Source of the DNA: a virus | Virus record (IMG/VR): IMGVR_UViG_3300007760_000019 | Coordinates: 1 to 54,595 of that record | Strand: one strand, 5' to 3' | DNA: 54,595 nt | Shown here: piece by piece, positions 1,808 to 42,430 of the stretch | Numbering within the stretch: position 1 is the first letter of the stretch | Layout of the letters: every line of letters begins with the position of its first letter | The notes under the pieces: generated by a model | What the model was told of the DNA's origin: nothing | The model's input: the letters and a program-made list of their open reading frames with translations, nothing else | Databases searched by the model: none | Made by a program: the position numbers and the translations under genes

Positions 1808-2071
1808 TCATCGAAATGTTGGATCTTTTGCCGTCTTAAATAGTTCTGGCATAAAAGACTTTTTAAGCTTGAGAAGCCTACCGAACTTTACTCGGCCTCG
1901 GAGGTTTATCAAGACACCTTTTGGTTTCTTAACTTCACCGTCGATTAATAGTTCATCAAAATTATAAAATTTAACCTTAGCGTCTTTTGCTGGAGGTTTC
2001 GCAGCCATGGCTGTTTGAGCACATACGACGAAGGCAACAGAAAGGGCCAACGCTCGTATCACATGCTTCAT
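1808..2071 (-). CDS. Small exported protein, host-like
   Basis: The 87-residue product has a clear cleavable signal peptide (residues 1-23, ending AMA-A). It is followed by a conserved-looking core, FYNFDELLIDGEVKKP, and a basic stretch FGRLLKLKKSFMPELF. I recall similar short secreted proteins in Myxococcota and related Deltaproteobacteria, some linked to cell-surface or gliding functions, but I cannot confirm this. It overlaps the next gene upstream by one base. The function is not known. It is one of several exported proteins carried by this phage. Confidence 0.75.
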   Translation of the reverse strand: MKHVIRALALSVAFVVCAQTAMAAKPPAKDAKVKFYNFDELLIDGEVKKPKGVLINLRGRVKFGRLLKLKKSFMPELFKTAKDPTFR

Positions 2072-2403
2072 CAGATCCCGAATTTGCCTGGGTCTATCTC
2101 ATAGTTATTAAAGATTTCATCAACGCTATAGCCACCAAAAAATTCCTGAAGATCTAGGGCCGCATACTCTAAGGCGTCTTGTTGATTTGAACCTATACCG
2201 TCTAAATGCTTATCAATGTATACGTCCAATAGATCTGTAATTGCCCTATCAGCAATCTCTTCAGCTGTCTGTACGGTGCCCTCATTAATCTTTTGTCCCT
2301 TTACTGCAGCGGCAAGCTCAGGATGGGCACGAGAACGCATAGGACTAAAGGATTCTACTTCTTCCTTAATCAAGCTACGTAATTGTTTTCTAGATAATTT
2401 CAC
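2071..2403 (-). CDS. Hypothetical protein with N-terminal LRxxIKEE tag
   Basis: I do not recognise the body of this 110-residue acidic protein. Its first 19 residues, MKLSRKQLRSLIKEEVESF, are a clear copy of the amphipathic tag that recurs in more than fifteen proteins of this window. By analogy with T4 capsid-targeting sequences this would mark an internal head protein. A possible processing site is KINE-G near residue 41. It is coupled to its neighbours by overlapping stop and start codons. Confidence 0.75.
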   Translation of the reverse strand: MKLSRKQLRSLIKEEVESFSPMRSRAHPELAAAVKGQKINEGTVQTAEEIADRAITDLLDVYIDKHLDGIGSNQQDALEYAALDLQEFFGGYSVDEIFNNYEIDPGKFGI

Positions 2404-3309
2404 TTATCGCTCCCTACGGCCATAGGCTTTCACATTATCCCGAGTCCTTCCAATCTCATGACTACTAAGATGCCTAGCATCCTTGGCTGTCTTAGGGTCA
2501 AGGGCACTCCATGCGTCAGATAGTGCATTCTCTAAATAGTCGGCAAACTCCTTAGCCTTAGCTTTTTGTTGCTTACGAATCTCTGCATATTCTGGGCCAC
2601 GAAGACCCTTAATGCCGCCACGCTTCGGGCCCCCAGCCTTCGCAGCACGCTTTGGCTTGGTTTGAACCTGGTATGTAAGATCCTGATATTCTTTTGCGAG
2701 TTGATCTAGCGTTGCATCACCCTCTAATACCGCCATCATCTGTGCTTGAATATCTCGACGTAATTCGGTTTTTAGCTGACTTAACTTCTTTTCTAGTTTA
2801 TGTTGAGCGGCGCCGGCCATATTTCCTAAAATACTCTTGGCTACTCCGGCAAGCTTCACCCCGCCCCAAAGACCTGCAATACCTAATGCAACACCTGCTC
2901 CGATAGTAGCAATTGTTCCAAGTACCTCATTCATGTCATCCTCATTTAGCTCTAGTTCATCTGCTGTTAGAACGGGTTCTTCGCCATCGCCAGGATATCC
3001 CCCACCTAACTCTTCCCTAATGATTCGTCTTAACTGTGTCATTGTAATAGGCCGGCCGGCTCTTAATCTTTGGCGGGACTCTTCCATGCGTCGACGTTGT
3101 GACATTGGCGTAGATGTTATTGTAGCCTGAAGCCGTAATGCTTCGCTCTTTCGCCAGACCATAACCTGTTCTGCCTGAATTAGATCTAAATCATGCTCTG
3201 TCATGAGCATGCCCATATCAACGTCTAATAGTTCAAGTATTTCATCATCAGATAAAGGTGCATGTACCTGAGCCTTTAAGACCGCTAATTCTAAAACTTC
3301 TTTTGCCAT
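2404..3309 (-). CDS. Tag-bearing protein with glycine-rich membrane segment
   Basis: The product has 301 residues. The tag, MTQLRRIIREEL, is internal at residues 90-101, after a helical N-terminal region. It is followed by an acidic linker and then a hydrophobic Gly/Ala segment (about 128-150, IATIGAGVALGIAGLWGG) that could span a membrane. The C-terminal half is basic and helical. GGAGG upstream supports the long start rather than a start at residue 90. Such Gly/Ala hydrophobic segments occur in pore-forming virion proteins, but no function can be assigned. Confidence 0.75.
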   Translation of the reverse strand: MAKEVLELAVLKAQVHAPLSDDEILELLDVDMGMLMTEHDLDLIQAEQVMVWRKSEALRLQATITSTPMSQRRRMEESRQRLRAGRPITMTQLRRIIREELGGGYPGDGEEPVLTADELELNEDDMNEVLGTIATIGAGVALGIAGLWGGVKLAGVAKSILGNMAGAAQHKLEKKLSQLKTELRRDIQAQMMAVLEGDATLDQLAKEYQDLTYQVQTKPKRAAKAGGPKRGGIKGLRGPEYAEIRKQQKAKAKEFADYLENALSDAWSALDPKTAKDARHLSSHEIGRTRDNVKAYGRRER

Positions 3310-3332
3310 TTTAAGAATCCTCCGCTACAGCT

Positions 3333-3365
3333 ATTATAACCATATACATTCATGTGTAACTTACA
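3333..3365 (-). promoter_or_regulatory. Possible promoter (good -10, poor -35)
   Basis: The minus strand reads TATAAT at 3338-3333 with GTTACA-like sequence about 16 bases upstream. The -10 is perfect, but the -35 half does not match the window's TTCGTGTAAA consensus. It lies 24 bases upstream of the 2404-3309 gene, in the only sizeable gap of this stretch. Confidence 0.35.
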
Positions 3366-3405
3366 TAAATATCAACCGAAAGGAATAACGTACCTTAAAA
3401 GAAGA

Positions 3406-3723
3406 CTATTTTAACTTGGAGTCTTCAAGAAGCATTTTCTTAACTAAATGCCGCCTCTCTGATTTCGACCTCACTAACTTGGGATCAAGCTTATATCGTT
3501 TAGCAGCTTTTTTCCAAAGCTTCCTAAATCGGCGTTGGACAACTTTTTTCTCATCCGGTGAAAGTGATACAAGCAACTCATCCAAAGTTTTTGGCTTATG
3601 GTGCCACCCTGTAAAACCAAATGAATATGGGTCCTCAGAAAGTACACTAGTACTATTTTCAATATCAGGCACAATTCCAGCATCCAGCATTAAAATCTGG
3701 AGAAGCAAGTTTCTGGAATCCAT
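3406..3723 (-). CDS. Hypothetical basic protein
   Basis: The product has 105 residues: a neutral N-terminal half and a strongly basic C-terminal half (RRFRKLWKKAAKRYKL). It ends in HLVKKMLLEDSKLK, which resembles both the amphipathic tag and the MLLE processing-site pattern seen in neighbouring proteins. CCGGAG lies at proper spacing before the ATG. No family recognised. Confidence 0.65.
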   Translation of the reverse strand: MDSRNLLLQILMLDAGIVPDIENSTSVLSEDPYSFGFTGWHHKPKTLDELLVSLSPDEKKVVQRRFRKLWKKAAKRYKLDPKLVRSKSERRHLVKKMLLEDSKLK

Positions 3724-14596: not shown

Positions 14597-15403
14597 CTAA
14601 ACCTCCACTTTGGCATTGATAAGACTATCAACCGCACGTTTCTTAATTGAACTTAGTTCCCGGTTGGTTACAGGAAAACTACTATGATCTGTAGGGTCCT
14701 CAGTTATTCCAAACCGAAGGCGCAAGATCTTTTCTTCCCTATCAGAAAGAGAATGAAGGGCTTGGCGTACAACCTCTGTAATCTTTTCTTGATCTAACTT
14801 TTCGCCTGGATGCTTTGCGTCAGTATCAGGAATAACGTCAGCTAACTTCCTGCCAGTTGACGGACCAGAGCTTCCACCGTAACTAATTGAACTATCTAGC
14901 GAGATTGGTGTTCCCGCAGCATCAATAATGGCACGCATCGATTCTAAGGATACACCAAGAAGCTCAGCTAACTCCGCTTGTGAAGGAGGAGCTCCGAACT
15001 CCTCTTCAAACTCAGCTGCAAACTTCTTCATTTTCCATAGCATACCTTTTGCATGGGATGGTAGCCTGATTGAGTTTGAGTTGGATGCAATATGACGCAT
15101 CACCGCTTGCTTAATCCACCAACAACCATATGTAGAGAACTTAAAGCCCCTACGCCAGTCGAACCGATCAACGGCTTTCATCAAACCAATATTGGCTTCC
15201 TGGATCAAATCCTCAAGTGGACAGCCTCTATTTTGATATTTCTTTGCGATGCTAATTGCTAGCCGAATATTGGCTGCAATCATATGGTCTCGGGCTTGCT
15301 TATCACCCTTTTCAATTCGTTTCGAAAGAGAAACCTCTTCCTCACGTGTTAGCAATTTTGTTTTACCAACGTCCTTAAAGAACGTCGAGAGTGTATCACT
15401 CAT
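14597..15403 (-). CDS. Sigma-70 family RNA polymerase sigma factor
   Basis: A 268-residue sigma factor with a short 1.2 region and a well-conserved region 2 (residues 60-118: EDLIQEANIGLMKAVDRFD, FKFSTYGCWWIKQAVMRHI, IRLPSHA). Region 3 spans about 120-190, and region 4 starts at LSDREEKILRLRFGI. Region 4.2 is abnormal: the first helix of the helix-turn-helix (normally TLEEIGxxFG) is replaced by TEDPTDHSSFP, and only VTNRELSSIKKRAVDSL remains. This predicts changed -35 recognition and fits the unusual upstream box of the phage promoters. A region-4-like gene overlaps its end. Confidence 0.92.
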   Translation of the reverse strand: MSDTLSTFFKDVGKTKLLTREEEVSLSKRIEKGDKQARDHMIAANIRLAISIAKKYQNRGCPLEDLIQEANIGLMKAVDRFDWRRGFKFSTYGCWWIKQAVMRHIASNSNSIRLPSHAKGMLWKMKKFAAEFEEEFGAPPSQAELAELLGVSLESMRAIIDAAGTPISLDSSISYGGSSGPSTGRKLADVIPDTDAKHPGEKLDQEKITEVVRQALHSLSDREEKILRLRFGITEDPTDHSSFPVTNRELSSIKKRAVDSLINAKVEV

Positions 15404-17351: not shown

Positions 17352-18998
17352 CTATGACATTATCAATGTATTATCAGGACCTGGGTCTTCTTCCCCAACA
17401 TCCTCAATCATGGCGCAGCCTACGGATAATAAATTACACGCTGCTGACGATGCATGTTCCAATGAAGACCTAACAACCTTGAGTGGATCAATAATACCAG
17501 CCTCCAGCATATCAACATACTCACCGGTAGAGGCATCATATCCCTTATTATGATCTTTTGAGCGGGCCACCTTTTCTAAAACAACCTCAGGTGCACCGCC
17601 AGAATTCCGAACAATCTGCATCAGTGGAGCGCTGCATGCCTTACGTACAACATCGATTCCTACCTGAACCCCCACGCCGTATTCTTTCTTGTTCATCTTA
17701 AGGCTCTCTAGATGACGCGCTGCCCTAACCAATGCAACACCCCCACCGAACAATAAACCTTCTTCTACAGCTGCCTGTGTAGCATGTAAGGCATCGTCGA
17801 CCCGGTCTTTACGTTCCAGTAATTCAACCTCAGTTGCACCACCAACCCTAAGTATCGCAACTCCACCAGCTAACCTTGCTAGACGCCTAGTAATTGCAGC
17901 TTGATCTGGTACTGACAATGTCGGGTCCCTTAATACTTTCCTTAATTCATCGGCACGGTGGTCAATTTTCTCTGCATCTCCAGCACAATCGATGAATGTA
18001 GTATAGCCCTTTCCAACAATAACTTTACGACATGTACCTAATTGCGTAAGGTCAATATCCTTAATATCATCCTCAGAAGCCATGCTCAATACTTCACACC
18101 CTAAAATTATGCCTAAATCTCCTAAGGCACCAACCCTCGACTCACCAAACTCTGGGGCCCGAATGGCACATATGTTTAATGTACCCTTTACACGGTTAAG
18201 CACCATCCCATGAAGAGCCTCGCCATCCACATCATCTGCAACTATTAATATCGAGCGTTGTGAGCCATGTATCTTTTCGAGTATTGGTAAAATATCATTC
18301 AATGATGTAATTTTTCTATTTAGCAAAAGGATATAGGGATTGTCCAATACTGCAGCCATTTTGTCTTGATCTGTAATAAAATACGGAGAAAGATAACCTC
18401 TATTAATCTCTGTTCCTTCAACTACATCAAGTGTTGTCTTAAACCCCTTTGCTTCCTCAACAGCAATGACACCATCCCTGCCAACTTCTTTCATAGCCCT
18501 ACATAAAAGCTCACCAATTGTACGATCACCATTGGCAGAAATTGTACCTACCTGAATTATTTCCTCATCACTGGTTACTGGTACTGCAATCTGTTTTAAG
18601 TACTGTACGACCTCTTCGGTTGCTATGTTTATTCCCCTACAGACCTCCGTTGCAGAATATCCAGCTGCTAACATCATTAACCCATCATTAAAAATGGCCT
18701 GAGATAGAACTGTCGCTGCGGTTGTACCATCACCCGCTACCTCAGCTGTCCTGCTTGCAGCTTCCTTTACCATCTGTACACCAAGATTCAAAAACCTGGC
18801 CCGTAGGTTTATAGCCTTAGCTACGGTCACACCGTCTTTTGTCAAGTGTGGCACCTGGCCGGGGCGCTCAATTACAACATTTTGCCCACGTGGGCCCATA
18901 GTAATTTTTACCGCATTAGCTAAGACATCAACACCTTCTAGAAGTTGTTCTCTAGATTTCGAGCCAAAAACTATCTCCTTATAAGAATCAGTAGTCAT
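17352..18998 (-). CDS. groEL: GroEL-type chaperonin (phage)
   Basis: A full-length 548-residue group I chaperonin with ATPase residues in place (GPRGQNVVIE at 36-45, GDGTTAATVL with D90) and the equatorial/intermediate hinge GGATEVELLERKDRVDDAL carrying the catalytic Asp. The usual flexible GGM C-terminal tail is replaced by an acidic end, GEEDPGPDNTLIMS. No GroES is found in the window; the 62-residue gene just upstream does not look like one. Phage GroELs are known (for example Pseudomonas phage EL) and can work without a co-chaperonin. It probably folds phage structural proteins. Confidence 0.95.
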   Translation of the reverse strand: MTTDSYKEIVFGSKSREQLLEGVDVLANAVKITMGPRGQNVVIERPGQVPHLTKDGVTVAKAINLRARFLNLGVQMVKEAASRTAEVAGDGTTAATVLSQAIFNDGLMMLAAGYSATEVCRGINIATEEVVQYLKQIAVPVTSDEEIIQVGTISANGDRTIGELLCRAMKEVGRDGVIAVEEAKGFKTTLDVVEGTEINRGYLSPYFITDQDKMAAVLDNPYILLLNRKITSLNDILPILEKIHGSQRSILIVADDVDGEALHGMVLNRVKGTLNICAIRAPEFGESRVGALGDLGIILGCEVLSMASEDDIKDIDLTQLGTCRKVIVGKGYTTFIDCAGDAEKIDHRADELRKVLRDPTLSVPDQAAITRRLARLAGGVAILRVGGATEVELLERKDRVDDALHATQAAVEEGLLFGGGVALVRAARHLESLKMNKKEYGVGVQVGIDVVRKACSAPLMQIVRNSGGAPEVVLEKVARSKDHNKGYDASTGEYVDMLEAGIIDPLKVVRSSLEHASSAACNLLSVGCAMIEDVGEEDPGPDNTLIMS

Positions 18999-20977: not shown

Positions 20978-21012
20978 TATGCTCCTATGACCGTGGCATC
21001 CACAAATCATAA

Positions 21013-27395: not shown

Positions 27396-27689
27396 CTATA
27401 CCGACATTGTATCGATGATGTTCCTGCGTTGGTACATCATGGTGTGGAAGGCCCTTAGTACTTTCTTTGATATTGCTATCACTGCCTTCTCATGTTCCTT
27501 ACCCTTGAACTCACCTTTGATAGCTTCACTGACTATCTTTTCCACTTCCTTCTTGAAGCCGGGAGCTCTTAGCTGTTTATCAAATTGCTTACGAGCAATC
27601 TTCTCAATTTCTTTCTTATCAGTCTTTGTAAGCTCCTCGGTAAGGAGGGATTCAATATATCTTCTAAGAAGTTTTTTATTGCCTAACAT
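27396..27689 (-). CDS. Tag-bearing conserved-type virion protein
   Basis: A 97-residue product starting MLGNKKLLRRYIESLLTEEL: the tag runs straight into a likely processing site, SLLTE-E (14-18). The rest is basic-helical (KEIEKIARKQFDKQLRAPGF, KVLRAFHTMMYQRRNIIDTM). I have the impression of similar sequences in T4-like marine phages, but no function is assigned. It lies next to the two tagged nucleases. Confidence 0.7.
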   Translation of the reverse strand: MLGNKKLLRRYIESLLTEELTKTDKKEIEKIARKQFDKQLRAPGFKKEVEKIVSEAIKGEFKGKEHEKAVIAISKKVLRAFHTMMYQRRNIIDTMSV

Positions 27690-27704: not shown

Positions 27705-28859
27705 TTATGCTATACATTTTCCTGCCAATGTGAGTACGTCTTCAGGGTCGTCGAGGCTAAAGGTGGATTTAGGGATTTGATTATAGTTCAAACTAAGTGT
27801 AGCTCGAAGAACCATATTTCTCGAATTCATAATCTGAACCTTTATTGTCGGCGTCGGTAATGAAGCAATTGCATCACTAAAGCTTAAAGTTTCCAACCCT
27901 AATGGATTATTACCTATATGATATAGACCCTTATTCAAAATTTGAATATACTCAGCTTTCTTTTCAAGATAATAATCCACAAGAATATTTGGTGTAATTT
28001 CTATCTTGGGTGCGCTTTGACTAATGAGGGTTTTTCTCTTTATAATACGGTATTGATCTATTGACATTTGTGTTGAGAATATACCACCTCGGAATCCTTT
28101 ACCATTGTTAATATATTTTGCCCATCCATCATTTAACTTATTCATCCATGCTCTAATTCCAGGATCATTAAAGCGTATTGCCCTATTAAGAAGCCTCGAA
28201 ATCATTAATGCATTTTTCTTAGACCTTGACGCTTTGGATGGGCTAAACGGATACATTTTTGCATTATATGAATAGCGTAGCGTCGGCTCCCCAAACTTTC
28301 CACCCTTCGCTTTAAGTTCAAATCCAAGTTCTCCTTGGCATGTTGCTACAACATCAGTATATCTTGGATCTGTTCCCTGTATTACGGTGATCCCCGCGGA
28401 CTGGAGTACCTTTACCGTATCCTCTTCATACTTGTATCCACCACCACGTTGGCCGCCTGCGGCGAGGGCGGCAAAAATAATGTTCTTTGTCTGAACCTCT
28501 CCGTTCTGGTCAGTGCCTGAAACCTCATATGTATTATATGTTCCTGAAATATTCATGCTCATATTTTGTACGGTGACGGTCGCCGGGTCTAAGTTAAAAA
28601 CAGTAGTAACAAGGTCTTTTGCTTTTGTTTTAAGTTCCGTATCGCTTTGGCTATGTGTGTCTTTAGTATGAATCCGAAAGTGTGCAGGAACCCCAGATTT
28701 AGTACCAACACCCGTATATTTTACCCCACTAGGGGTTTTAATATCTTTAATTCCCACCTGTGGAGCAGTAGCTTGAATTAAGCGAGCATCTGATGCCCCT
28801 GATTCTGTTAAGAGTAACTCCCGAATCCATTCTCGTAACAACTTCTCACTCATCATCAT
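27705..28859 (-). CDS. Tag-bearing PD-(D/E)XK nuclease-like protein
   Basis: A 384-residue protein. The first 20 residues, MMMSEKLLREWIRELLLTES, are the virion tag with a probable cut at LLLTE-S. The body contains a PD-(D/E)XK core: acidic helix YKYEEDTVKVL (E145), DPRYTDVVATC (D169) and LGFELKAKGG (E181-x-K183). The C-terminal region (GLYHIGNNPLGLE, PTIKVQIMNSR) is shared with the next gene, so the two are paralogues. I infer a nuclease packaged in the head and injected with DNA. Its target is unknown. Confidence 0.7.
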   Translation of the reverse strand: MMMSEKLLREWIRELLLTESGASDARLIQATAPQVGIKDIKTPSGVKYTGVGTKSGVPAHFRIHTKDTHSQSDTELKTKAKDLVTTVFNLDPATVTVQNMSMNISGTYNTYEVSGTDQNGEVQTKNIIFAALAAGGQRGGGYKYEEDTVKVLQSAGITVIQGTDPRYTDVVATCQGELGFELKAKGGKFGEPTLRYSYNAKMYPFSPSKASRSKKNALMISRLLNRAIRFNDPGIRAWMNKLNDGWAKYINNGKGFRGGIFSTQMSIDQYRIIKRKTLISQSAPKIEITPNILVDYYLEKKAEYIQILNKGLYHIGNNPLGLETLSFSDAIASLPTPTIKVQIMNSRNMVLRATLSLNYNQIPKSTFSLDDPEDVLTLAGKCIA

Positions 28860-29677
28860 ATTCCTATTAAGAAACTTAGATCTGCCTCGAGATCAACCGT
28901 TGATGGTGATAAACCAGATAAGACTAGCCCATTATTCCATGAGATTGATGATCGTTTATTAGCAACCTTAGGATCTGCTGCCTTTTCAGGATCTGCACTA
29001 TGGTAAGCAGTTACACCTGCACTTGACCCACCCCACTTAAGCCGAGACCTAACCTGGACCTTGGCAGGAGCAAACTGCGGAACGCCTAATCCTAATGGGT
29101 CTGAGTCTAGATAGTAGAACCCATATCCTTCCCCTACCTGGATATAGTGTACACCCTTTTGGATATAGTTTGCATAGATCGCATCGGGTGTTACATCCAC
29201 CTTCATTAATTCAAAGGAAAAATCTGGATTCTCATTTCGAAAATCCCAATACTCTTGATTAGTTACGGACATTGGAAGCTTAGGCGACCCAAAATATGCC
29301 ATAAACTCTTCCATATGCTCCTGAACCCCGGGGCCACTAAGGATGAAATCATCAATCAAGCCTATATCATCGTAGAACTCAGTAATAGCGTCTGTTGATC
29401 CCCAATTCCACTTTCCTCCACCATGATACCTGCAATTCTTTTGACCCGCAAATACGTTTGGACTTAGCTTTGCTTCAATTCCATGTTCTCTACCAGATGA
29501 ATCAATAAATACCAGGTCTGCGCCATGGCCAGCACCTGCTGTTGCCTGTGATGGTCCGAGATCAGCAGATGCTAGCATTGCCTGTAGCTTGGCCTCATAC
29601 TCAAATCCGCCCTTGGCAAATGCCATTTCCGAAAGTAGTTTTTCTCTAATCCATTCTCTTAATAGTTGTTCTTTCAT
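28856..29677 (-). CDS. Tag-bearing PD-(D/E)XK nuclease-like protein (paralogue)
   Basis: A 273-residue protein starting MKEQLLREWIREKLLSE followed by MAFAKGG, the clearest tag-plus-cut site in the window (KLLSE-M, 13-17). The nuclease core follows at once: GFEYEAKLQAML, HGADLVFIDS (D54) and HGIEAKLSP (E68-x-K70). The C-terminal half shares the YIQKGVHYIQ...DPLGLG...KVQVRSR pattern with the previous gene. It overlaps that gene by four bases, forming a tandem pair. Confidence 0.75.
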   Translation of the reverse strand: MKEQLLREWIREKLLSEMAFAKGGFEYEAKLQAMLASADLGPSQATAGAGHGADLVFIDSSGREHGIEAKLSPNVFAGQKNCRYHGGGKWNWGSTDAITEFYDDIGLIDDFILSGPGVQEHMEEFMAYFGSPKLPMSVTNQEYWDFRNENPDFSFELMKVDVTPDAIYANYIQKGVHYIQVGEGYGFYYLDSDPLGLGVPQFAPAKVQVRSRLKWGGSSAGVTAYHSADPEKAADPKVANKRSSISWNNGLVLSGLSPSTVDLEADLSFLIGI

Positions 29678-29678
29678 A

Positions 29679-30956
29679 TCAGCCTGCCATTATCGCCATT
29701 CTTACATAAGTACGTAAGAGCGACTCATTTTTATCTGGTTTTGGTGCCGACATTCTTGAAGCCCGGCCTACAATCTGGTTATTCATAGCAAAAGTGCCTG
29801 TTAGCTTATATAGTACCCTACTGCCTGGTGGGTGTTCGAATACAACCCCTTCCATATCGGATGCAACATTCTCGATATCACCGAGTTTCCCTAGTTGCTT
29901 ATCCAATAATGCAGCAGCAGCCTCAGCATTTTCCTCTGGTACATTTTGAAGTGCAACGATAGCACTTTGAAGTTGCTCTTTCATCCTGGCAATCTCAGCA
30001 TCATGATCACTAACAAAAAATGATTCCAGACCTTTAAGCACTTCAATTGCAAAATCACTGATGGCCTTCTCTATAGGGCCTACTGCACGAGATATTGCGC
30101 CGTAGCGATTAGTTGTGGTAGCTATAGCACTAATAGACTTTCGAACGTCCTTAGGCACCATCTTCTTTAAAGCATTAACATTTTTGGCACCCTCTTTTCC
30201 GAGGATCGTCTTTAATACTTCTTCTTGTTGGTCAACGGGGATTGGTAAATCACCAACAGGGCCAGTCCTTAAACGTTCAGCAACATAATCACCAATAGTA
30301 GCATCATCACTCATTCCTGTTATGGAATCAAGCTCAGCAGCAAAATCACTATATGCAGACCCATCTGAAATGTCATTTAATTCCACTAGCTTTGGGCCGG
30401 ACATTTGCCAGCCCTCTTCATCCATTTCACCTTCGGCTGTCTCTACAGCAGAGACCAATGAAGAGAATGCACCACCGGATTCGATGGTCTTCTTACCTTC
30501 TTCATCGAATTGGTGCATGTTATGTAAGACAATCCAGTCACCACTGTACACGATAATGTTGGGATTCTTTGTATACATGATCTCGGCATTGATATAGTTC
30601 TGGCCATGATCACCAAAGATTTCTTGTAGCTGTTCAGGGCTAAGCTTGCCCATGGCTCGCTCTACAGCATGGAACCCATTCATAAATGCCTTAGCAACAT
30701 TAGGGTTCGGATGGGCAGCCCATTTGGAGGCATACTCATCAGGTGACATTCCGCCCTTTTTGATATCACCGTCGTTTCGCGCGGTGCGGATCTGGCCCAC
30801 ACTAGCATCCCATGTAAAGAATACATTTTGGCCGTCGACCTTTTCAATAACATCAATGTTAGCTGTTGCTACATCTGATAATATCGATTTGATCTCGCCA
30901 AACGTAAAATCTAAATTTTCATGAAGGTGACTTAAATGTCCTGCGACTCCGCCCAT
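29679..30956 (-). CDS. KxDG ligase-family nucleotidyltransferase with C-terminal tag
   Basis: A 425-residue protein with the covalent nucleotidyltransferase motifs: EKVDGQN (motif I, Lys39), NAEIMY (motif III Glu, E125), MEGVVFE (motif IV, 369-374) and YKLTG (motif V, Lys384). A helical insertion of about 200 residues separates motifs III and IV. This suggests an RNA or DNA ligase-like activity or a related nucleotidylation. It ends in NESLLRTYVRMAIMAG, a C-terminal copy of the virion tag. It is first behind the promoter at 30991-31022 and upstream of both tagged nucleases. Confidence 0.7.
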   Translation of the reverse strand: MGGVAGHLSHLHENLDFTFGEIKSILSDVATANIDVIEKVDGQNVFFTWDASVGQIRTARNDGDIKKGGMSPDEYASKWAAHPNPNVAKAFMNGFHAVERAMGKLSPEQLQEIFGDHGQNYINAEIMYTKNPNIIVYSGDWIVLHNMHQFDEEGKKTIESGGAFSSLVSAVETAEGEMDEEGWQMSGPKLVELNDISDGSAYSDFAAELDSITGMSDDATIGDYVAERLRTGPVGDLPIPVDQQEEVLKTILGKEGAKNVNALKKMVPKDVRKSISAIATTTNRYGAISRAVGPIEKAISDFAIEVLKGLESFFVSDHDAEIARMKEQLQSAIVALQNVPEENAEAAAALLDKQLGKLGDIENVASDMEGVVFEHPPGSRVLYKLTGTFAMNNQIVGRASRMSAPKPDKNESLLRTYVRMAIMAG

Positions 30957-31027: not shown

Positions 31028-31333
31028 CTAATCTTCTTCAGTTAACATTTCTTCCTGCTGCATCTTATCAAATTCTTTGAGTGCAGCACGTTTCTGGCGG
31101 CGTAATACATTCAATACACCATTATAATGACCGCGTGAATCTGACCTGCTTGGACATGTATCCCGAACCCATACTGCATCTGCTATACGAGCCCCAATAT
31201 CATCTACACAAGACTGGCAGCCGAACTGGACCATGTTTCCACCCAACGTTTTATATGATGCATCACCAGACATTTCACGGAGCATTTCCCTGACTAGCGT
31301 TTTTACATACAGCCTTTCGCTTAATTCACTCAT
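31028..31333 (-). CDS. Tag-bearing small protein
   Basis: A 101-residue product starting MSELSERLYVKTLVREMLRE and followed by MSGDAS, with the tag at residues 8-20. The C-terminus ends in EEMLTEED, a second MLTE processing-like site. The middle holds FGCQSCVDDIGARIADAVWV. No enzyme family seen. It overlaps its neighbour by one base (TAATG). Confidence 0.65.
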   Translation of the reverse strand: MSELSERLYVKTLVREMLREMSGDASYKTLGGNMVQFGCQSCVDDIGARIADAVWVRDTCPSRSDSRGHYNGVLNVLRRQKRAALKEFDKMQQEEMLTEED

Positions 31334-33099: not shown

Positions 33100-34365
33100 T
33101 TACTCCATGGCTTTTTCATGGGCATCCCAGTCAATCTTTGGATCATCTTCTTTTTGCCCTGCTTGAAACTTTGCAGTTGATGTTAATGCTTGCTCTAATG
33201 CCTTTTGCCGGCGACCTTTACTCTGCTTGCCCCATTTATCTTTTGCAACATCCAGAATGTCAACATCAAGCTTCGCTAATTTAGAGAGCTTAGGCATTTC
33301 CGCATTTGCGAGCCTGGCTAGTGCCGTAGCTGTTTTATCTGGGTCGTCATCTGTAACTTCACCCTTCTCAATAAGTTCTTTATAATCCTTATTAATCTTT
33401 TTTGCTAGCTTCTCTTGACTACGAGGCGTTTCACCTAAGGCTTGATTTAAGACAGTTTGGCGTGATCTCTGAGGTAGGTTCATTTTATCAATTTCTGTGC
33501 TAATGGCATCAACTGATCTTTTCTTAATAACCCTCATTGCCGGCCTCAAAATATGTGCCGTAAAGAAAAACCTATATGAATCTAACTTCTTAACAGCATC
33601 TGGGGATTGCTGGAGTTCTACAGCATCTTCTTCGTCTATATAATCACCAGCGAGCATTCCATCAATGAACTCAGCTGCTGCAAAGTCTCGTAACTCTTCT
33701 ACATCGTTATGAGGTACGTCATCAATCATATATCTCATCTGTGCTAGCCATCGTTCGCTTGCTTGACGCATTTGTGTAATGGAGCCTGTCCCTTCCTGAT
33801 CTGCAAGGTCCTCAAGGCTCATTCCATCAGGGGTATTATCGATAGGTTCAACTTCGTCCTCACCCGGATCCCAATCATGTACCGATAACTCTTCTTCAGC
33901 ATATCTTGGAACGTCCCAATTAGACATTGCCTCAATCATTGTCCGCACTTGTCGGCGAACACTTTCTTCAGTTACTTCTTCCTCAGATGGCTCTTTATTT
34001 TCAGGATGATTATGTTCCCCCATTGCATCATCATATAATCTAAGCATATCCCTATAAAATGCCGCAACTTGATCGCCAGGTATCATTCTTGCAATCTGGT
34101 CGGCGGCCCGGGCAAGTTCTTTTGGATTTTCTGGAATAAAATCCTCATCTTCAATAGGCGGCCTATCATCTGCTAGTTGTGTAGCCATCATTTCAGTTGG
34201 CTCAATAGGCACCTCACTCGGAACAGTTGATTCCGTCTCGGGTGTTTCGTTATCTGCCGAATCTGGGCCGGGTTGATCATACATCCCATACCTTATATTT
34301 TCACGTTCAAAAAGAACACCATTCAAAAACTTTCTTAGCGCTGTACGCTTAACTGAAACACTCAT
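33100..34365 (-). CDS. Large acidic tag-bearing virion-core-like protein
   Basis: A 421-residue product beginning MSVSVKRTALRKFLNGVLFE then REN: the tag plus cut site GVLFE-R (16-20). A second tag-like element, EESVRRQVRTMIEAM, occurs near residue 130. It has long acidic helices and a basic C-terminal third. This matches a scaffold/core protein with several processing sites. No enzyme motif. Confidence 0.65.
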   Translation of the reverse strand: MSVSVKRTALRKFLNGVLFERENIRYGMYDQPGPDSADNETPETESTVPSEVPIEPTEMMATQLADDRPPIEDEDFIPENPKELARAADQIARMIPGDQVAAFYRDMLRLYDDAMGEHNHPENKEPSEEEVTEESVRRQVRTMIEAMSNWDVPRYAEEELSVHDWDPGEDEVEPIDNTPDGMSLEDLADQEGTGSITQMRQASERWLAQMRYMIDDVPHNDVEELRDFAAAEFIDGMLAGDYIDEEDAVELQQSPDAVKKLDSYRFFFTAHILRPAMRVIKKRSVDAISTEIDKMNLPQRSRQTVLNQALGETPRSQEKLAKKINKDYKELIEKGEVTDDDPDKTATALARLANAEMPKLSKLAKLDVDILDVAKDKWGKQSKGRRQKALEQALTSTAKFQAGQKEDDPKIDWDAHEKAME

Positions 34366-34382: not shown

Positions 34383-34414
34383 ATTATAACTGGATACTCC
34401 AGCACTTAAACACC
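34383..34414 (-). promoter_or_regulatory. Possible promoter with perfect TATAAT
   Basis: The minus strand has TATAAT at 34388-34383 with GGTGTTTAA about 17 bases upstream, a partial match to CGTGTAAA. It would serve the 33100-34365 gene. It overlaps the end of the upstream gene. Confidence 0.4.
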
Positions 34415-35116
34415 GCCCAATAATATTTTCATATGGGCCTTTTCACACCCGCCTATACCACGGCAATACCAACCTTCATGATCTGGACCATATCGGTTTG
34501 CATATTTTTCTTCTGGGTGCCTACCAACCCAATCCACCTTCTTGCCAGTTAGGGCTTCAACTTCTTCCTTGCTGGTTACTGCCGGTACACCATAGCGTGT
34601 TATCATAACATGTGCTATCTTTCCAGACATCTCGGCGATGTCACCACTCTTAAGACCTTCGGCAGTCTTATCCAGGTACATTTTAATTGCAGCTTCACTA
34701 CCATCATGGCCAACTATCCCCATCTTCATCCTTCCGCCGCGCATCTTCCCTCCGCGGAAATAATCAGGCTCAGGATCACCATCAATCTCAGCAGCCTTCA
34801 TAACTGTGTATCCGGCTGGAAGGTCGGATGGGCTCTGGACCTTTATGTTACCAAATTTCCCATCACCTAGCGGGACTTCACCATAAGCATTTTGGATTAG
34901 ATCAAATATTTCATCATCTAAATCACGTTCCTCAGGACAGGGAGGTTCTACACAATCTTCATCATCGAAATCCTCAGGAAAAATTGGAATAGCCTTCCCT
35001 ATTGGTGCATTAAAATCTGCCCATTTTTTTTCTATCAGCATACGTGCACGGTGTGCCTCAAGCTCTTCTTGAATAATGCGTCTTAACTTAGACTCTGAAA
35101 TTGATTTACGTTTCAT
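34406..35116 (-). CDS. Tag-bearing protein of unknown fold
   Basis: A 236-residue product beginning MKRKSISESKLRRIIQEELE then AHRARMLIEKK: a near-perfect tag (9-19) and processing site RMLIE-K (25-29). The body has acidic N-terminal and basic middle parts (YFRGGKMRGGRMKMGIVGHD) and ends with WVGRHPEEKYANRYG. No family recognised. Confidence 0.65.
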   Translation of the reverse strand: MKRKSISESKLRRIIQEELEAHRARMLIEKKWADFNAPIGKAIPIFPEDFDDEDCVEPPCPEERDLDDEIFDLIQNAYGEVPLGDGKFGNIKVQSPSDLPAGYTVMKAAEIDGDPEPDYFRGGKMRGGRMKMGIVGHDGSEAAIKMYLDKTAEGLKSGDIAEMSGKIAHVMITRYGVPAVTSKEEVEALTGKKVDWVGRHPEEKYANRYGPDHEGWYCRGIGGCEKAHMKILLGGV

Positions 35117-35721: not shown

Positions 35722-36681
35722 TCACTTGATTAGTCCAGCTAATCGTTGCCAGTTCTCTATAATCACATCATCATTAGACCGATATGATTCTTCCGTTTTT
35801 TCTTCTTTGGCATAAGGCTCATTAAGGTCAACTTTTCCTTGTTGAAGTAACTCAATTGCCTGCTGCAGGTGACCTTTGCCCTTACTAATTACAGGCATAT
35901 CAGGTCTCTCTGGGAACCCGCCAGGGACTGATAACGTTAGTTGAGATACGTTTTCGCCCATTTTCTTTGCTGCTGCAGAAACGGCAGCATCACCCTCTTC
36001 ATCGGTCCATTCTTCACATGCTGCTTGACACTGATCAGCATCGGCGCCCCAAAAGCCGGCTTTGACTAAAGCCTGAAGCTGTTCTAAGATTCCAGCCTCA
36101 TTGAACTGGTCAAATCCTCCACTGCCTTCTTTACCTGAGGTTATGCCCAGTTTCACAGTAATCATATTTAAGGCTGCAATCATCTCTTTAGCAGGAAAAT
36201 CGACAATATAGCCCCCTACTGAGGCTGATGGGTCTATCATACCAGTTGCTATCCACCGGTGGTGGCCATCCATGATGTGGCCGTCGTTAGTAATAATAGC
36301 ACCTAAGTCACCACCTGGGCCTGTTGGAAATGGTTTAACCTTTAGAATTGCACAGATTGCAAATTGGCATGCCTTTTCAATGTTCATTGATGACTGAGAA
36401 GGCTTTAGGTTACTTACAGCAATGTCCCCTGCCTTTGCACCCACCTTATCATCATCTGCATCACCGTCGTCGTCGCCACCAGTTGCCAAAAGTTCTGCCT
36501 CATCACCAGCTTTAGTAGCTGCCTTGCTAAGAGGCATTGGAAAGCGATCCGAGTCAACCTTGGTTGGATCTGCATCCTCAAAAAGAACGTCTGCTAGACT
36601 AGGTTTACGCTTTCGTTTGCTCACTTTATTTTGAAGCACTTCCCGAATCGCCTTACGCAATTGTGTTTCATTCTTAATCAT
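35722..36681 (-). CDS. Tag-bearing ParB/sulfiredoxin-like protein
   Basis: A 319-residue product starting MIKNETQLRKAIREVLQNK, with a probable processing site DVLFE-D (31-35). Residues about 85-170 match the ParB-like nuclease/sulfiredoxin fold: DIAVSNLKPSQ, then DGHIMDGHHRWIA (DGHHRW at 138-143), the nucleotide-binding signature. Members of this fold bind CTP or ATP and some cut DNA. Its tag suggests delivery with the phage DNA. Activity is not established. Confidence 0.7.
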   Translation of the reverse strand: MIKNETQLRKAIREVLQNKVSKRKRKPSLADVLFEDADPTKVDSDRFPMPLSKAATKAGDEAELLATGGDDDGDADDDKVGAKAGDIAVSNLKPSQSSMNIEKACQFAICAILKVKPFPTGPGGDLGAIITNDGHIMDGHHRWIATGMIDPSASVGGYIVDFPAKEMIAALNMITVKLGITSGKEGSGGFDQFNEAGILEQLQALVKAGFWGADADQCQAACEEWTDEEGDAAVSAAAKKMGENVSQLTLSVPGGFPERPDMPVISKGKGHLQQAIELLQQGKVDLNEPYAKEEKTEESYRSNDDVIIENWQRLAGLIK

Positions 36682-37990: not shown

Positions 37991-38284
37991 CTAATCCTCC
38001 TGGCCCTTGAGCGGATTCTCTCCCTCTATTGCTCTAAAAATTGACTCAGCATCTGTCTCAGAAAATCCCTCAATAGTCTTGGTTCGCTTACACTCAGCTA
38101 ATGTCTCAAGTAGGTCTACCATATAGGGTTGAGCCTCTACTATTTGCCTTGCTGTAGCTTCGAATATTTCCTGCATTGAAAGATGATGCTTAAATGCCAC
38201 CATCCGAAGTGCTGCATGGGTTTCTCTAGTTAAATTTATATGTACAGATTTACGAGTCTCAAAATCTACATAAGAACTAGGCAT
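37991..38284 (-). CDS. Ribbon-helix-helix-like protein
   Basis: A 97-residue product. The strand SVHINLTRETHAALRMVAFK followed by HHLSMQEIFEATARQIV gives a beta-helix-helix order typical of Arc/CopG DNA-binding dimers. It could regulate nearby late genes. It overlaps the tagged gene upstream by one base. Confidence 0.65.
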   Translation of the reverse strand: MPSSYVDFETRKSVHINLTRETHAALRMVAFKHHLSMQEIFEATARQIVEAQPYMVDLLETLAECKRTKTIEGFSETDAESIFRAIEGENPLKGQED

Positions 38285-38961
38285 TATGCGCCACCATCAG
38301 CTGCCATTGACCCTATCGCCTGAGGGGCTGGGGGTGTTGATTCATCATCTGCGGCGCGTTGTGTTGCACCAACATATTTGTCATACGTTGAATCCATCAT
38401 CTCTTCAAAATATGTAGTAGTTTCTTGATCATATTTGTCAAGGAGGTAATCCTTTGCTTTATTTATAATCAGCGCTTCCATATCTAGTAAACTATCATAA
38501 TTGTCAATAAGGCGACTAACGTCGCCAGCAAAACTAGCAATATCAATGTTGGTTGACCCAACCCAATTGGGGGCGGCGGCGGCAGAAGCTTCTTCTTCAA
38601 ATAACATATCTGCCAAAGGTCGTTTATGCCACTCAACTTCAATTTCGACATCAGGTGCCACCCGCAGTGTATTATCTGCTGCAACTGTTGCTGATTTCAT
38701 TGCCTTCGTTTCAAAGTCAATAAGATAAGCTAAGATCTGATCATCAGCAGATCTGCTTAGCGTAGCTTGTTCTTCTGGACTTACATAAATGTCATCTTCA
38801 GGCTCTTCCTCTTCTGCCGGTGCATCCTCACCTCCTTCATCAGCAGCTTCTTCGCCCTCTTCTTCGGTTGCTTCTTCGCCCTCTTCTTCAGGCTCGGCCT
38901 CAAGAAGTAGATCAAACTCTTCTAAAATCAGCTTTTTCAAATGTTTTTTTGTCAAGCGCAT
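38284..38961 (-). CDS. Tag-bearing acidic head-core-like protein
   Basis: A 225-residue product starting MRLTKKHLKKLILEEFDLLL then EAEPEEEGEEA: tag and probable cut site DLLLE-A (17-21). A long Glu-rich stretch follows, then a second site DMLFE-E and a helical C-terminus. Acidic composition and repeated LxE sites suit a prohead core or scaffold protein. Confidence 0.7.
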   Translation of the reverse strand: MRLTKKHLKKLILEEFDLLLEAEPEEEGEEATEEEGEEAADEGGEDAPAEEEEPEDDIYVSPEEQATLSRSADDQILAYLIDFETKAMKSATVAADNTLRVAPDVEIEVEWHKRPLADMLFEEEASAAAAPNWVGSTNIDIASFAGDVSRLIDNYDSLLDMEALIINKAKDYLLDKYDQETTTYFEEMMDSTYDKYVGATQRAADDESTPPAPQAIGSMAADGGA

Positions 38962-38985: not shown

Positions 38986-39531
38986 CTACCAGCGGTATCC
39001 TAAGGTAATTCCTGGATACGGAACAACGGCCTCGAGTCCAGAACCCAATTTCCACACAGCCGCAATTGGAATATAGATTTCCCCATGAAGATGTTCTCCC
39101 CACACCTTACCTAGTCCTATAGAAGGGCCGCCGGCAAGATATGTATTTTCATAATCATAGCAATCCTCATACCCATTCGGATAGTCTTCACCGGGAGGTG
39201 GGTTGGCATCGACCCATTCACATTCTTCGCCCTGGCTATACATTGCCCCAAGCCCAATCGCGACATTTAAGTAGAAATTATCATCACCCTGGATTCTTTT
39301 TCCAAATTGTGTACCTGCAAAAACAGATCCACCATCTTCCTTATTCCAAGCCGGCATTAAAGCTAACTGGCCAAACCAGCCATCCATTGCACCGCGATAT
39401 GTTAAGCCCAGGCCTGTCGTTGCACCGGCTGTAAAACCTACAGTGCTATGAAGCTGTTTTTTCTGAGTACCTGCATGGGCGCTGGTTGTTAGGGCTAATA
39501 AAAATGCACAAGCAACAACTAGTCTTTTCAT
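38986..39531 (-). CDS. Outer-membrane beta-barrel-like exported protein
   Basis: A 181-residue protein with a signal peptide (LVVACAFLLALTTSAHA-G). Alternating amphipathic strands follow (GFTAGATTGLGLTYRG, FYLNVAIGLGAMYSQG, YLAGGPSIGLGKVWG, GEIYIPIAAVWKL). It ends in ITLGYRW, the terminal aromatic typical of barrels inserted by the Bam complex. Eight strands are likely. A phage-made outer-membrane protein could block superinfection by hiding a receptor. Function is inferred only. Confidence 0.7.
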   Translation of the reverse strand: MKRLVVACAFLLALTTSAHAGTQKKQLHSTVGFTAGATTGLGLTYRGAMDGWFGQLALMPAWNKEDGGSVFAGTQFGKRIQGDDNFYLNVAIGLGAMYSQGEECEWVDANPPPGEDYPNGYEDCYDYENTYLAGGPSIGLGKVWGEHLHGEIYIPIAAVWKLGSGLEAVVPYPGITLGYRW

Positions 39532-40259
39532 GAGCTCATCACCTTGGCAATTTTCTCGGCTTTCTTAACACGTTTTTCAATAACATCCCAATCAAGCTCT
39601 TTCATCATAGCCCTAATATAGGTTTTTCTATCATTAAGATAATCCCTATAGTAAGATGTTTCAGAACAATCAAGAACAATTACAGGATATGATGATAGCG
39701 GTGCATTATTGGCCGCCAAGTCTACAACCACATTTACATAGCGGTTTAACCAAGAATTATAGACTGTCATAGCCCAGCCGCTACGAGATGATAGTGCACA
39801 TGCGATAAAATCTTTCTGCCAATCATCAAACGTTCCAAAATCTCTTTCAAGGCGCATAAATGCCAGAGAATCCATTGCCAATCGACTTTGCATATCACTG
39901 ATATTTTCAAAAAACATGCCGTGAAGAAATGCTGCATTTAGATTATATGACTCATCTACCTTAAGGTTTCGAAACTCAGAATGATTTGCATTAACATCCG
40001 ACCTGTCCGTAGCATCCAGCTTGGCACTAACTTCATTTAGTGAAGCAATGTGGTGCTCCATTACTTCAAGGTGTGCTGTCTTATTCTTATTACTAAGAAG
40101 CTCTGTTTGAAGATTGAACTTCTTTCCTTGTGTGACGTAAGCTTCTTGAAGAACCTTTTTTGCCTCTTCGGCAGAGAGCTTATCCGGGGACATACCCAGG
40201 GACTCCCTAATGGTTCGAACTAGTTCCTCGCGTGTCAATGCAGATTTATTTGATGCCAT
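39528..40259 (-). CDS. Tag-bearing Fe/Mn superoxide-dismutase-like protein, degenerate metal site
   Basis: A 243-residue protein whose first 23 residues (ALTREELVRTIRESLGM) form the virion tag. The body follows the Fe/Mn-SOD pattern: HIASLN, FLHGMFFENI (H113), FGTFDDWQKDF, SGWAMTVYNSW, VIVLDCSETSYYRDYLNDRK (D197) and DWDVIEKRV. The last His ligand, normally in WEHAYY, is Thr201 here, and the first His region is altered. It is probably not a normal dismutase. The fold may serve as a structural or binding protein in the head. The start overlaps nothing and lies one base after the upstream stop. Confidence 0.65.
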   Translation of the reverse strand: MASNKSALTREELVRTIRESLGMSPDKLSAEEAKKVLQEAYVTQGKKFNLQTELLSNKNKTAHLEVMEHHIASLNEVSAKLDATDRSDVNANHSEFRNLKVDESYNLNAAFLHGMFFENISDMQSRLAMDSLAFMRLERDFGTFDDWQKDFIACALSSRSGWAMTVYNSWLNRYVNVVVDLAANNAPLSSYPVIVLDCSETSYYRDYLNDRKTYIRAMMKELDWDVIEKRVKKAEKIAKVMSS

Positions 40260-40260
40260 G

Positions 40261-40635
40261 TTATTTAACCTCATATTCCTTTTCGAACTCTTCCTGATCA
40301 ACTATAAATATCTCATCATCTGCAGAATCCTGATTCTTAAGCTTATATCTATCAGGTGCCTGAGCTGCTAATGGATCACCGGTTGCAGGTGGTTCAACTC
40401 GTGGTTCTTCCGGAAGATTCAATGTAACCTCAAGATCACCAGACTCTGGGTCTTCCTCTACATTATCTACCGTATATTCATATTGTGTATCTTTATGACG
40501 TACTTTAAGATCCTTTCCGACGATCATATTTCCCCTATCGTCGACCATATCGGATTCATCCAAGACCTCTGTTAGTCTTTTTTTGTACTCATCTCTCATC
40601 ATTCGGATAATATCACCCTCGGTTAACATACTCAT
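40261..40635 (-). CDS. Tag-bearing small acidic protein
   Basis: A 124-residue product starting MSMLTEGDIIRMMRDEYKKR, with a likely processing site EVLDE-S (23-27). A beta domain follows (VRHKDTQYEYTVDNVEEDPE, LEVTLNLPEEPRVEPP), then an acidic tail. No family recognised. Confidence 0.6.
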   Translation of the reverse strand: MSMLTEGDIIRMMRDEYKKRLTEVLDESDMVDDRGNMIVGKDLKVRHKDTQYEYTVDNVEEDPESGDLEVTLNLPEEPRVEPPATGDPLAAQAPDRYKLKNQDSADDEIFIVDQEEFEKEYEVK

Positions 40636-40636
40636 A

Positions 40637-42430
40637 TTAGTACCCCTTAATTCCTGCTGCGCGCATCCATCGATGTCTTACCAGTTCATCTGTAGACCAG
40701 TCCGTATTATGATCAGCCATTGGGTCTGAAAATTCATCTTGAGGAGGTGTATCTAGATTTACTATACGTTCTGTTAGTAGTTGTGCATCGCGTTGTGAAA
40801 ATCCTTCTTCAAAAATATCTTGGCCAACGGCTTGATTCATTGCTAGTCTAAATGCCCGACGTGATCTTGTAGCCTTACCACCCTCGCCGGCGATGTCAGG
40901 GAAACTCTTAAGAAGCCTGGCAAGCTTCAATTTATCAAATGGGATACTCCCCAGTGCCTGTTCTGCTTTGTCAGCCATTTCATCAGCAGCCTCAATATCT
41001 TCTGGGGAAAGTTCTGCATCTTCACCTGTTAGCTCTTCATCTTCTGTTTCTCCGCCGGTGGTGATGTCTGTTACAATTTCATCTTCCATAGCATCATTAA
41101 TACCTTGGGCCACCTGTGTAAGAACAGCATTTTTGTCAACATCATCACCTAAATCGTCCGCGCCGCTCATTTTAACCAAGTCTTCAAATCCAATTTCTTC
41201 ATTTAATAAAGACATAAGGGAAAATGAATGCATGGATCGGCGTTGAAAAGATTCTTCAAAAACGACACCCTTGCCTGAAAGAACTTGCTTAAAGCCATCA
41301 ACCTTGCCGAGGTTCTGTAGGATCTTTTGTGCAGATGCACCATCATCAGTAACATCAAGGACTGCCTTTGCAATATCTTTCCATTGTTTACCTGCTGCCT
41401 CAGCATCATCTAGATTAGCCTCATCGGCAAGATCTTCTAGAGCATCTTCCGGGGCAACGTCACCGGCCTCGACTGCAGCATCAACAGCCTCGACTGCATC
41501 TGATCCATCTTTGACCCCTGCACCAGTTAGCTTCTTAAGAAAATCTGGATAGTTGTCTTCAATATACTGCATAAGATCAAAGTTTGGACGTTTTTGGGCT
41601 TCCCCTGGAGATGCTACTTTTCCGCCCTCCTCTTCAGCGGCGCCTGAAAGGTCATCCTCCATTCCGGCCATGGCTTCACCGGCTGCCTCGGCGCCTTTAT
41701 CACCTTTGGCGTCGGCCTTCTTTACCTCAGCGACCATTCCTGCCAGTTCTTCAAGCGATAGTCCCAACATATCTTCAGTAAAAACTGATTTGTCGAGCTC
41801 TTTCCCCATTTTGCCCTTAAACCACCCCACAATTTTACCAAAAAGACCTTTTGACTCCTTTGATGGAACATATGAACGCTCGATACCTGTGCGTAGGGTT
41901 TTCTCATCAGGAAAATCCCCACGTTCATCTTCACCCATTGCCGCAAGATCTTTAAGCGATTTTTGTATTATTTCAGGTTTTTGCTCTTTTGCAAATGTTG
42001 TCTTCGATAACTGACCACCGAGAAGTGCAACAGAGTTAGCAAAAGAGTCTCTAGCTTTTTGAATCTGAGTCATGGCAGCAGAAGCGGTTTGTGCACGCTT
42101 CTTCATTGTTTTTGTATCACCCTTGATTGCTAGTTTTACCATTTCACCATTATCGGGCAGCTCAGCAACTAGTTCCTGGAAGTACTTTTTAACATTTTCC
42201 ATTTTTGTGCCTGGCATGCTGCCAGCAAGGGCCTCTAAGCCTGCACGAGTTTGCTTCACCGCGGAGTCTAGTTTTTCTGCTTCATCTTCACTAACATCCT
42301 CAGTTAGCAAAAAACTCATAGAGCCATGACCTAATGACTCCTCAAGTGTAGTAAGACGATTTAGCTTATTAGAAGCTTCAATCATCATGAAGATATTTCG
42401 AAAATCCTGTTTTGTTGGACGAGTTAGCAT
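40637..42430 (-). CDS. Large scaffold/core-like protein with repeated LxE sites
   Basis: A 597-residue, strongly acidic, Ala-rich helical protein. It carries repeated processing-like sites: MMIEA (15-19), FLLTEDV (40-46), VVFEESF and QDIFEEGF. There is also a tag-like MSLLNEEIGF near the middle. AAGGAA precedes the ATG. It has features expected of a prohead core protein that is cut during head maturation. No enzymatic domain. It ends the cargo region next to the nucleotide-metabolism genes. Confidence 0.65.
   Translation of the reverse strand: MLTRPTKQDFRNIFMMIEASNKLNRLTTLEESLGHGSMSFLLTEDVSEDEAEKLDSAVKQTRAGLEALAGSMPGTKMENVKKYFQELVAELPDNGEMVKLAIKGDTKTMKKRAQTASAAMTQIQKARDSFANSVALLGGQLSKTTFAKEQKPEIIQKSLKDLAAMGEDERGDFPDEKTLRTGIERSYVPSKESKGLFGKIVGWFKGKMGKELDKSVFTEDMLGLSLEELAGMVAEVKKADAKGDKGAEAAGEAMAGMEDDLSGAAEEEGGKVASPGEAQKRPNFDLMQYIEDNYPDFLKKLTGAGVKDGSDAVEAVDAAVEAGDVAPEDALEDLADEANLDDAEAAGKQWKDIAKAVLDVTDDGASAQKILQNLGKVDGFKQVLSGKGVVFEESFQRRSMHSFSLMSLLNEEIGFEDLVKMSGADDLGDDVDKNAVLTQVAQGINDAMEDEIVTDITTGGETEDEELTGEDAELSPEDIEAADEMADKAEQALGSIPFDKLKLARLLKSFPDIAGEGGKATRSRRAFRLAMNQAVGQDIFEEGFSQRDAQLLTERIVNLDTPPQDEFSDPMADHNTDWSTDELVRHRWMRAAGIKGY

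Follow-up and report, generated by a model that had tools for sequence, protein, structure and literature searches.

A shared tag on unrelated proteins of uncultured marine phages, probably a capsid-targeting propeptide

Tagged genes of the window

The window analysed here, meaning the whole stretch of DNA under study, is a 54.6-kb IMG/VR virus fragment (IMGVR_UViG_3300007760_000019, positions 1-54,595). Thirteen or fourteen of its otherwise unrelated proteins carry a common tag, located at either terminus or internally (Table 1), which bears out an earlier note that had described such a shared element from the letters of the sequence alone. Judged from sequence comparison, this tag is very probably a capsid-targeting propeptide, similar in function to the capsid-targeting sequence (CTS) of phage T4, different from it in sequence, and present on up to ~50 genes per phage. 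A core regular expression of the tag returns 12 matches in the gene calls of the window versus 0.29 expected from shuffles, and 5 matches near N-termini versus 0.03. The pattern as the earlier note had written it is too strict, since only 3 proteins match it. A profile hidden Markov model (HMM) built from the tags of the window and its overlap only recovers the 14 places marked HMM in Table 1. These include the internal copies in ORFs (open reading frames) 2404-3309 and 20570-21049 and the C-terminal copies of 23889-24506, on the plus strand, and 29679-30956, all four of which had been proposed beforehand. A leave-one-out position-specific scoring matrix, scoring each tag against shuffles of its own protein, yields p≤0.01 for 12 of the 14 tags, the weak cases being 31028 (p=0.03) and 38284 (p=0.23). 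None of the 14 recognisable housekeeping genes examined is tagged. The overlapping contig G001 (65.7 kb), identical to the window at the protein level where compared, adds ~11.6 kb leftward, and five further proteins of the overlapping contig L005 score as tagged, a sixth partially.

The copies that had been graded as looser fare unequally. By sequence alone, 31333 and 40261 fall short of significance, and 39528 is a borderline case. The tag of 33100 is recovered by the HMM, yet its top leave-one-out match is an internal stretch at residue 133 instead of the N-terminus; LFE, the predicted cut ending a variable leader, is kept in 4 of the 5 members of its family. Amphipathicity, also claimed for the element, is modest in the single tag: the z-scores of 14 of 14 tags are positive, but few reach p<0.05 individually, and in a set of 414 tags 22% do so. 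Regarding the bodies of the tagged proteins, a superoxide dismutase (SOD)-like assignment is supported by PF02777 (Sod_Fe_C, 7.8e-18) in the product of 39528-40301. The label of nucleases is unsupported: the products of 27705 and 28856 are without a Pfam domain, and an AlphaFold2 model of the latter, computed without alignment, has a predicted local distance difference test (pLDDT) score of 32.

Table 1. Tags and related features of the window. A slash marks the predicted cut.
Feature	Positions	Strand	Basis
N-terminal tag MKLSRKQLRSLIKEEVESF of ORF 2071-2403	2347-2403	-	HMM 6.6e-5; leave-one-out p=0.0025
Internal tag MTQLRRIIREELGGG of ORF 2404-3309	2998-3048	-	HMM 2.2e-6
Internal tag AKLRQIIRKEVGQVIDE of ORF 20570-21049	20753-20803	-	HMM; kept in G020
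N-terminal tag ..EEQVRRWVRNIIRE/D of ORF 22297-23568	23497-23568	-	HMM, leave-one-out, orthologues
C-terminal tag NESLLRSLIRETILSG of nucleotidyltransferase 23889-24506	24450-24503	+	HMM, homologues
N-terminal tag MLGNKKLLRRYIESLLTE/EL of ORF 27396-27689	27633-27689	-	HMM, leave-one-out
N-terminal tag MMMSEKLLREWIRELLLTE/S of ORF 27705-28859	28803-28859	-	HMM, leave-one-out
N-terminal tag MKEQLLREWIREKLLSE/M of ORF 28856-29677	29627-29677	-	HMM, leave-one-out
C-terminal tag KPDKNESLLRTYVRMAIMAG of ligase-like ORF 29679-30956	29682-29741	-	HMM, homologue comparison
N-terminal tag ..YVKTLVREMLRE/M of ORF 31028-31333	31259-31333	-	HMM; leave-one-out p=0.03
N-terminal tag ..TALRKFLNGVLFE/R of ORF 33100-34365	34303-34365	-	HMM, orthologues
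N-terminal tag MKRKSISESKLRRIIQEELEA of ORF 34406-35116	35051-35116	-	HMM, leave-one-out; three orthologues tagged
N-terminal tag MIKNETQLRKAIREVLQNK of ParB-like ORF 35722-36681	36625-36681	-	HMM, leave-one-out
C-terminal tail IIENWQRLAGLIK of ORF 35722-36681	35725-35763	-	resembles scaffold C-terminus NRFKKLAGIIK of relatives
N-terminal tag MRLTKKHLKKLILEEFDLLLE/A of acidic ORF 38284-38961	38908-38961	-	HMM; orthologue alignment; leave-one-out not significant
Predicted protease site VLQE/AYV before SOD-like domain, ORF 39528-40301	40143-40154	-	orthologue alignment
ORF with looser leader ..YKKRLTE/V	40261-40635	-	orthologues RLNE/V, RLTE/A; not significant alone
Large acidic protein, many LxE sites, scaffold-like C-terminus RWMRAAGIKGY	40637-42430	-	sequence, C-terminal motif

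The cut site at the end of the tag

The full tag spans ~22 residues, with the N-terminal consensus M-K-[IL]-T-K-x-Q-L-[RK]-x-I-I-[KR]-E-E-[LI]-x-x-[LV]-L-x-E (354 tags). Past its final glutamate, conservation ends and the composition becomes random. A closing [ILVMF]-x-E is found in ~20-25% of the tags at each of the offsets 10, 13, and 14 versus a ~2% background; of these, offsets 13-14 are covered neither by the search pattern nor by the profile. Taking offsets 9-17 together, 261 of the 354 tags contain such a site, as compared with 56-61 in equal downstream windows, and A, G, and S are enriched directly after it. This terminal L-x-E corresponds to the specificity of the T4 prohead protease gp21, which cleaves after L/I-X-E (PMC9026906).

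The same end is found in the shell protein. Among 92 aligned rows of the gp23-type major capsid protein (MCP), two of which are T4, all have a glutamate at the position of T4 gp23 E65, within the pattern [LVFI]-[ILV]-x-E/[AST]; in the clade of the window, the site reads Q-[VIM]-L-[RK]-E/[ASQ]. The P3 residue is L, I, V, or M at the tag end, by definition of the site, and I, L, or V at the aligned capsid sites, unlike in the A-x-E motif of SPN3US. Since both alignments exhibit hydrophobic-x-E, the tag end and the MCP cut are one motif in the same phages. This shared protease site, absent from the earlier note, is the strongest evidence for capsid targeting.

Orthologue comparison leads to the same end of the tag. 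In these alignments the leader sequence diverges while the cut-site end persists. The SOD-like family has hydrophobic-x-E/AYV in 5 of 5 members (VLQE, KLDE, PLSE, AVNE, and TLKE before AYV), leaders of the acidic 38284 family end in LLLE/, LLVE/, TLLE/, ILSE/, and VLRE/, and those of 22297-23568 orthologues in KILVE/R and KILHE/S. Some of the families with a persistent end are among those graded as loose beforehand. Among relatives of this region, 13 of 37 ortholog pairs from tagged families are tagged by HMM, versus 0 of 44 housekeeping pairs (DnaE, GroEL, sigma factor, exonuclease, thymidine kinase, and others).

Capsid and protease genes

The clade of the window was retrieved through its DNA polymerase DnaE, without use of the tag (28 loci; 62-73% identity); GroEL is a poor anchor for it, with 2 loci only. 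All 10 long contigs of this clade are tagged (1-49 tags each) and all 10 encode a gp23-type MCP, as do 13 of the 13 long contigs selected by the tag. An S77 (gp21-type) protease is present in 15 of the 15 phages tested, namely the 13 long tag-bearing contigs, LR756508, and LR756500, which has T4-like leaders. Among the phages covered, the tag is restricted to those with the gp23/S77 head system. In LR756508 (484 kb), which did not contribute to the HMM, 17 of the 22 matches lie within 55 kb (11% of the genome) holding terminase, portal, protease, scaffold, and MCP. The prohead protease gene of this genome (LR756508.1, 156480-158204; L009:16481-18205) is split by a LAGLIDADG intein, and two gp23-type capsid genes lie side by side in one phage contig (G005, G003). 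The GroEL (17352-18998) and sigma factor (14597-15403) genes of the window are phage-encoded and syntenic across the clade.

Scaffold-like proteins encoded upstream of the capsid gene (loci L013-L092) end in [IV]-x-E...NRFKKLAGIIK, and this type of C-terminal motif returns 56 matches versus 0.4 in shuffles. Similar W-x-x-[LMA]-AG-[IL] tails terminate the window ORFs 35722 (35725-35763) and 40637 (40640-40696) and their relatives, with RWEALAGIRSK in the relative of the latter from contig G025. The 40637-42430 product is a candidate prohead core protein, and the tail is perhaps a second prohead-binding signal. No INPHARED relatives of the 40637 and 27705 products were found.

Distribution in phages and cellular genomes

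The search of other phages, which the earlier note had proposed, returns hundreds of tags in IMG/VR phage contigs, whereas shuffled proteins yield none. With a threshold of 8 bits, the HMM reports 322 matches in contigs retrieved by a DNA pattern of the tag (280 of them N-terminal), 40 matches in 80 loci chosen by their capsid gene alone, and 14 in one stretch of LR756508. Among 85,000 bacterial and archaeal genomes, the DNA pattern hits 8 stretches, all in contigs of metagenome-assembled genomes (MAGs). The largest of these contigs, 305,838 bp long and from a Methylococcaceae MAG, is a phage contig, as it encodes a gp23-type MCP alongside the tags. Regarding the match in a Halobacteriovorax MAG, the MCP sits on a separate contig, and the remaining three MAG contigs with the pattern are short. 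In G020, the closest contig of the clade, a run of ~35 tagged small genes occupies 146-161 kb. DNA ligase and DnaE matches in INPHARED are too distant to be informative, and no description of the motif was found in the literature searched.

Cargo and exchanged addresses

The bodies behind the tags are unrelated: by BLAST, 141 tagged proteins (130 residues or longer) fall into 105 clusters. Their domains comprise P-loop kinases, zeta-toxin-like, HAD, YkuD, DnaJ, cupin, PAP2, GNAT, 2H phosphodiesterase-like, and ADP-ribosyltransferase-like folds, and no polymerase, helicase, terminase, or capsid family is among the cargo domains listed. This mixture, as read from domain matches, fits accessory effectors better than structure.

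Homologous cargo can bear different addresses. Distant homologues of the ligase-like protein 29679-30956 occur in LR756500, LR756508, and Mel-JY01. That of LR756500 starts with MKFLKSYEEFLNENLILE/GGSYGHLNH, a leader very near the T4 CTS (MKTYQEFIAE/A); in Mel-JY01 and LR756508 the homologue is preceded by a nucleotidyltransferase domain, the joint in Mel-JY01 being NIIAE/GG. The window protein begins with M-GG, exactly at the predicted cut point, and bears a private C-terminal tag instead, which is present in G020 and not in the homologues of LR756500, LR756508, Mel-JY01, and G026. A DUF3008-like protein represents a second exchange, with the C-terminus KFIKTFNEF in LR756500 versus the LRxIVRE tag in others. 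Genome-wide, LR756500.1 (L006, 462 kb) has ~30 T4-CTS-like leaders of the form MKF[IL]K-x-YEEF-x-NE, one of them C-terminal. A profile of these leaders does not match the window, nor does the window tag profile match T4. On account of the cargo swaps and the LR756500 leaders, the addresses seem to differ from one phage group to another while sharing the type of cut at their end.

The tag also shifts between termini among homologues. The C-terminal tag of 23889-24506 is kept in the homologues of L199, G020, and G026, and the G020 homologue of the upstream part of 2404-3309 carries a tag at its C-terminus. A mis-called start as the origin of the internal tag of 2404-3309 was rejected, as a Shine-Dalgarno-like GGAGG precedes the annotated start and none precedes the internal ATG.

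Two further arrangements were observed in the loci searched. Some polyproteins link unrelated stretches of ~50-150 residues by repeated ESVNE/[AG] or ESVVSE/G, which resemble prohead-protease sites (L026:1546-4245, L135:9211-11319, L035:1257-3263, L039:13-1449, L017:4667-6694, L204:4536-7361, and L031). Several lie in capsid-anchored loci; at least three linkers occur in 13 proteins and none in shuffles. They are possibly strings of cargo separated by cutting in the head. A shorter leader class of T4-CTS length, M-I-[KR]-L-K-x-[IL]-L-x-E/, is found in the L013-L092 loci and, in LR756508 (L009:37697-43576), is carried by a series of genes that are ADP-ribosyltransferase-like, without Pfam support.

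Interpretation and alternatives

Because the cutting site at the end of the tag recurs in the phage's shell protein, the tag is best read as an address label for head loading. Cargo would be translated late, with an amphipathic helix of ~15-22 residues at one end. This helix would bind the prohead core or scaffold, and the cargo would be enclosed as the gp23-type shell assembles. The S77 protease could then cleave after the terminal [LIV]-[LIV]-x-E, the motif also found in the MCP, and free the cargo, while C-terminal tags, devoid of the final glutamate, are probably retained. The cargo would then stay inside the head alongside the DNA and enter the next host at infection, if ejection follows the T4 precedent. 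The delivery address with N- and C-terminal versions that the earlier note had suggested thus finds support in sequence comparison. We lean, if only slightly, towards the broader proposal of a transferable genome-wide delivery code, in which up to ~50 accessory genes per large marine phage are marked at either terminus or between polyprotein domains for head loading and injection.

Several points count against capsid targeting. About a quarter of the tags are without L-x-E where it is expected, and C-terminal tags are unable to act as cleaved leaders. Capsid and protease genes are none of them within the window and were deduced from its clade, and in several relatives the tag clusters are distant from the head genes. 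LR756508 was the sole responder to the tag search of INPHARED, the profile search found no tag in isolate phages, and the tag-bearing phages found are uncultured.

Tagged proteins might instead be ordinary scaffold or core parts that shape the head and are then degraded, not delivered. The acidic 38284 and 40637 products do resemble core proteins, and T4 core proteins carry several L-x-E sites. However, the cargo includes folded enzymes, SOD-like, nucleotidyltransferase, and ligase-like in the window and kinases, YkuD, DnaJ, GNAT, and ADP-ribosyltransferase-like in relatives, and more than 100 unrelated families with up to 49 copies per contig are excessive for scaffolding, which makes this explanation unlikely. 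It is likewise improbable that the helix docks to another phage structure (a membrane, the replication compartment, or a coiled-coil complex) and that L-x-E reflects helix periodicity only. The helical composition, the AlphaFold2 model of one tagged family (helix at residues 3-31, pLDDT 71), and the many tag clusters away from head genes would suit such docking. But periodicity does not predict a fixed glutamate, the loss of conservation after it, the A/G/S preference, or the match with the MCP site; orthologues retain hydrophobic-x-E despite divergence of the helix, and homologous cargo elsewhere bears a T4-CTS-like leader.

Routing of the proteins to the phage chaperonin has a precedent in the T4 gp23 N-terminus, which directs proteins to GroEL (PMC10052503), and a GroEL gene is present both in the window and among 9 of the 15 phages tested. 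No GroEL was seen in five tag-bearing records, LR756508 with its 22 matches being one of them, and the L-x-E end and its match with the capsid site would be left unexplained; we regard this route as very unlikely. Hardly credible, finally, is a mobile start segment spread by recombination or convergence with no common function: the tandem tagged small genes of G020 do suggest duplication and shuffling, but the restriction to one head system, the lack of housekeeping tags, the C-terminal copies, and the conserved cut sites require selection. Capsid targeting is, among the readings considered, the sole one that accounts for all independent results.

Comparison with known systems

Protein shells such as encapsulins (cargo-loading peptides) and bacterial microcompartments (encapsulation peptides) likewise recruit unrelated cargo through short terminal peptides. 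These peptides are not known to involve a protease step or DNA delivery, nor are their sequences known to be related to the tag.

Among phages, capsid-targeting sequences are already known from T4 and P1 (PMC9026906, PMC9024508). In P1, the N-terminal 30 residues of DarB are enough to bring a reporter into the head (PMC9024508), but no consensus is common to the Dar proteins, and P1 belongs to another phage family. In phiKZ and SPN3US, many internal ejection proteins have N-terminal propeptides removed by the prohead protease (PMC10052503). These differ from the tag in the A-x-E cut of SPN3US, in the mostly long propeptides (111-254 residues), in the ~80% of head proteins that are uncut, and in the absence of a common short tag.

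The closest system is the T4 CTS, carried by IPI, IPII, IPIII, and the Alt propeptide and cut by gp21. Like the tag, it is a short leader at the N-terminus of internal proteins that are otherwise unrelated, it ends in L/I-x-E, it goes with a gp23-type capsid and an S77 protease, and its cargo genes may lie apart from the head genes. The ADP-ribosyltransferase-like genes of LR756508 with short leaders recall Alt. In contrast, the window tag is longer, with a different helix, L-[RK]-x-I-I-[KR]-E, in which the T4 homology K-[TS]-Y/F-x-E-F does not occur; at most ~50 copies are present per phage here versus a handful in T4, and C-terminal and inter-domain use is found here. As far as sequences tell, the tag's own sequence, its scale, and its C-terminal and inter-domain use look new.

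The proteins injected by jumbo phages are largely unknown. If capsid targeting holds, hundreds of head-packaged proteins, including candidate anti-defence and takeover enzymes, could be predicted from metagenomes, the T4 CTS would represent one case in a family of clade-specific addresses under a common protease, and the tag would supply new peptides for loading proteins into phage heads. A delivery code, if true, would be the phage counterpart to a secretion signal, making injected effectors readable by sequence alone.

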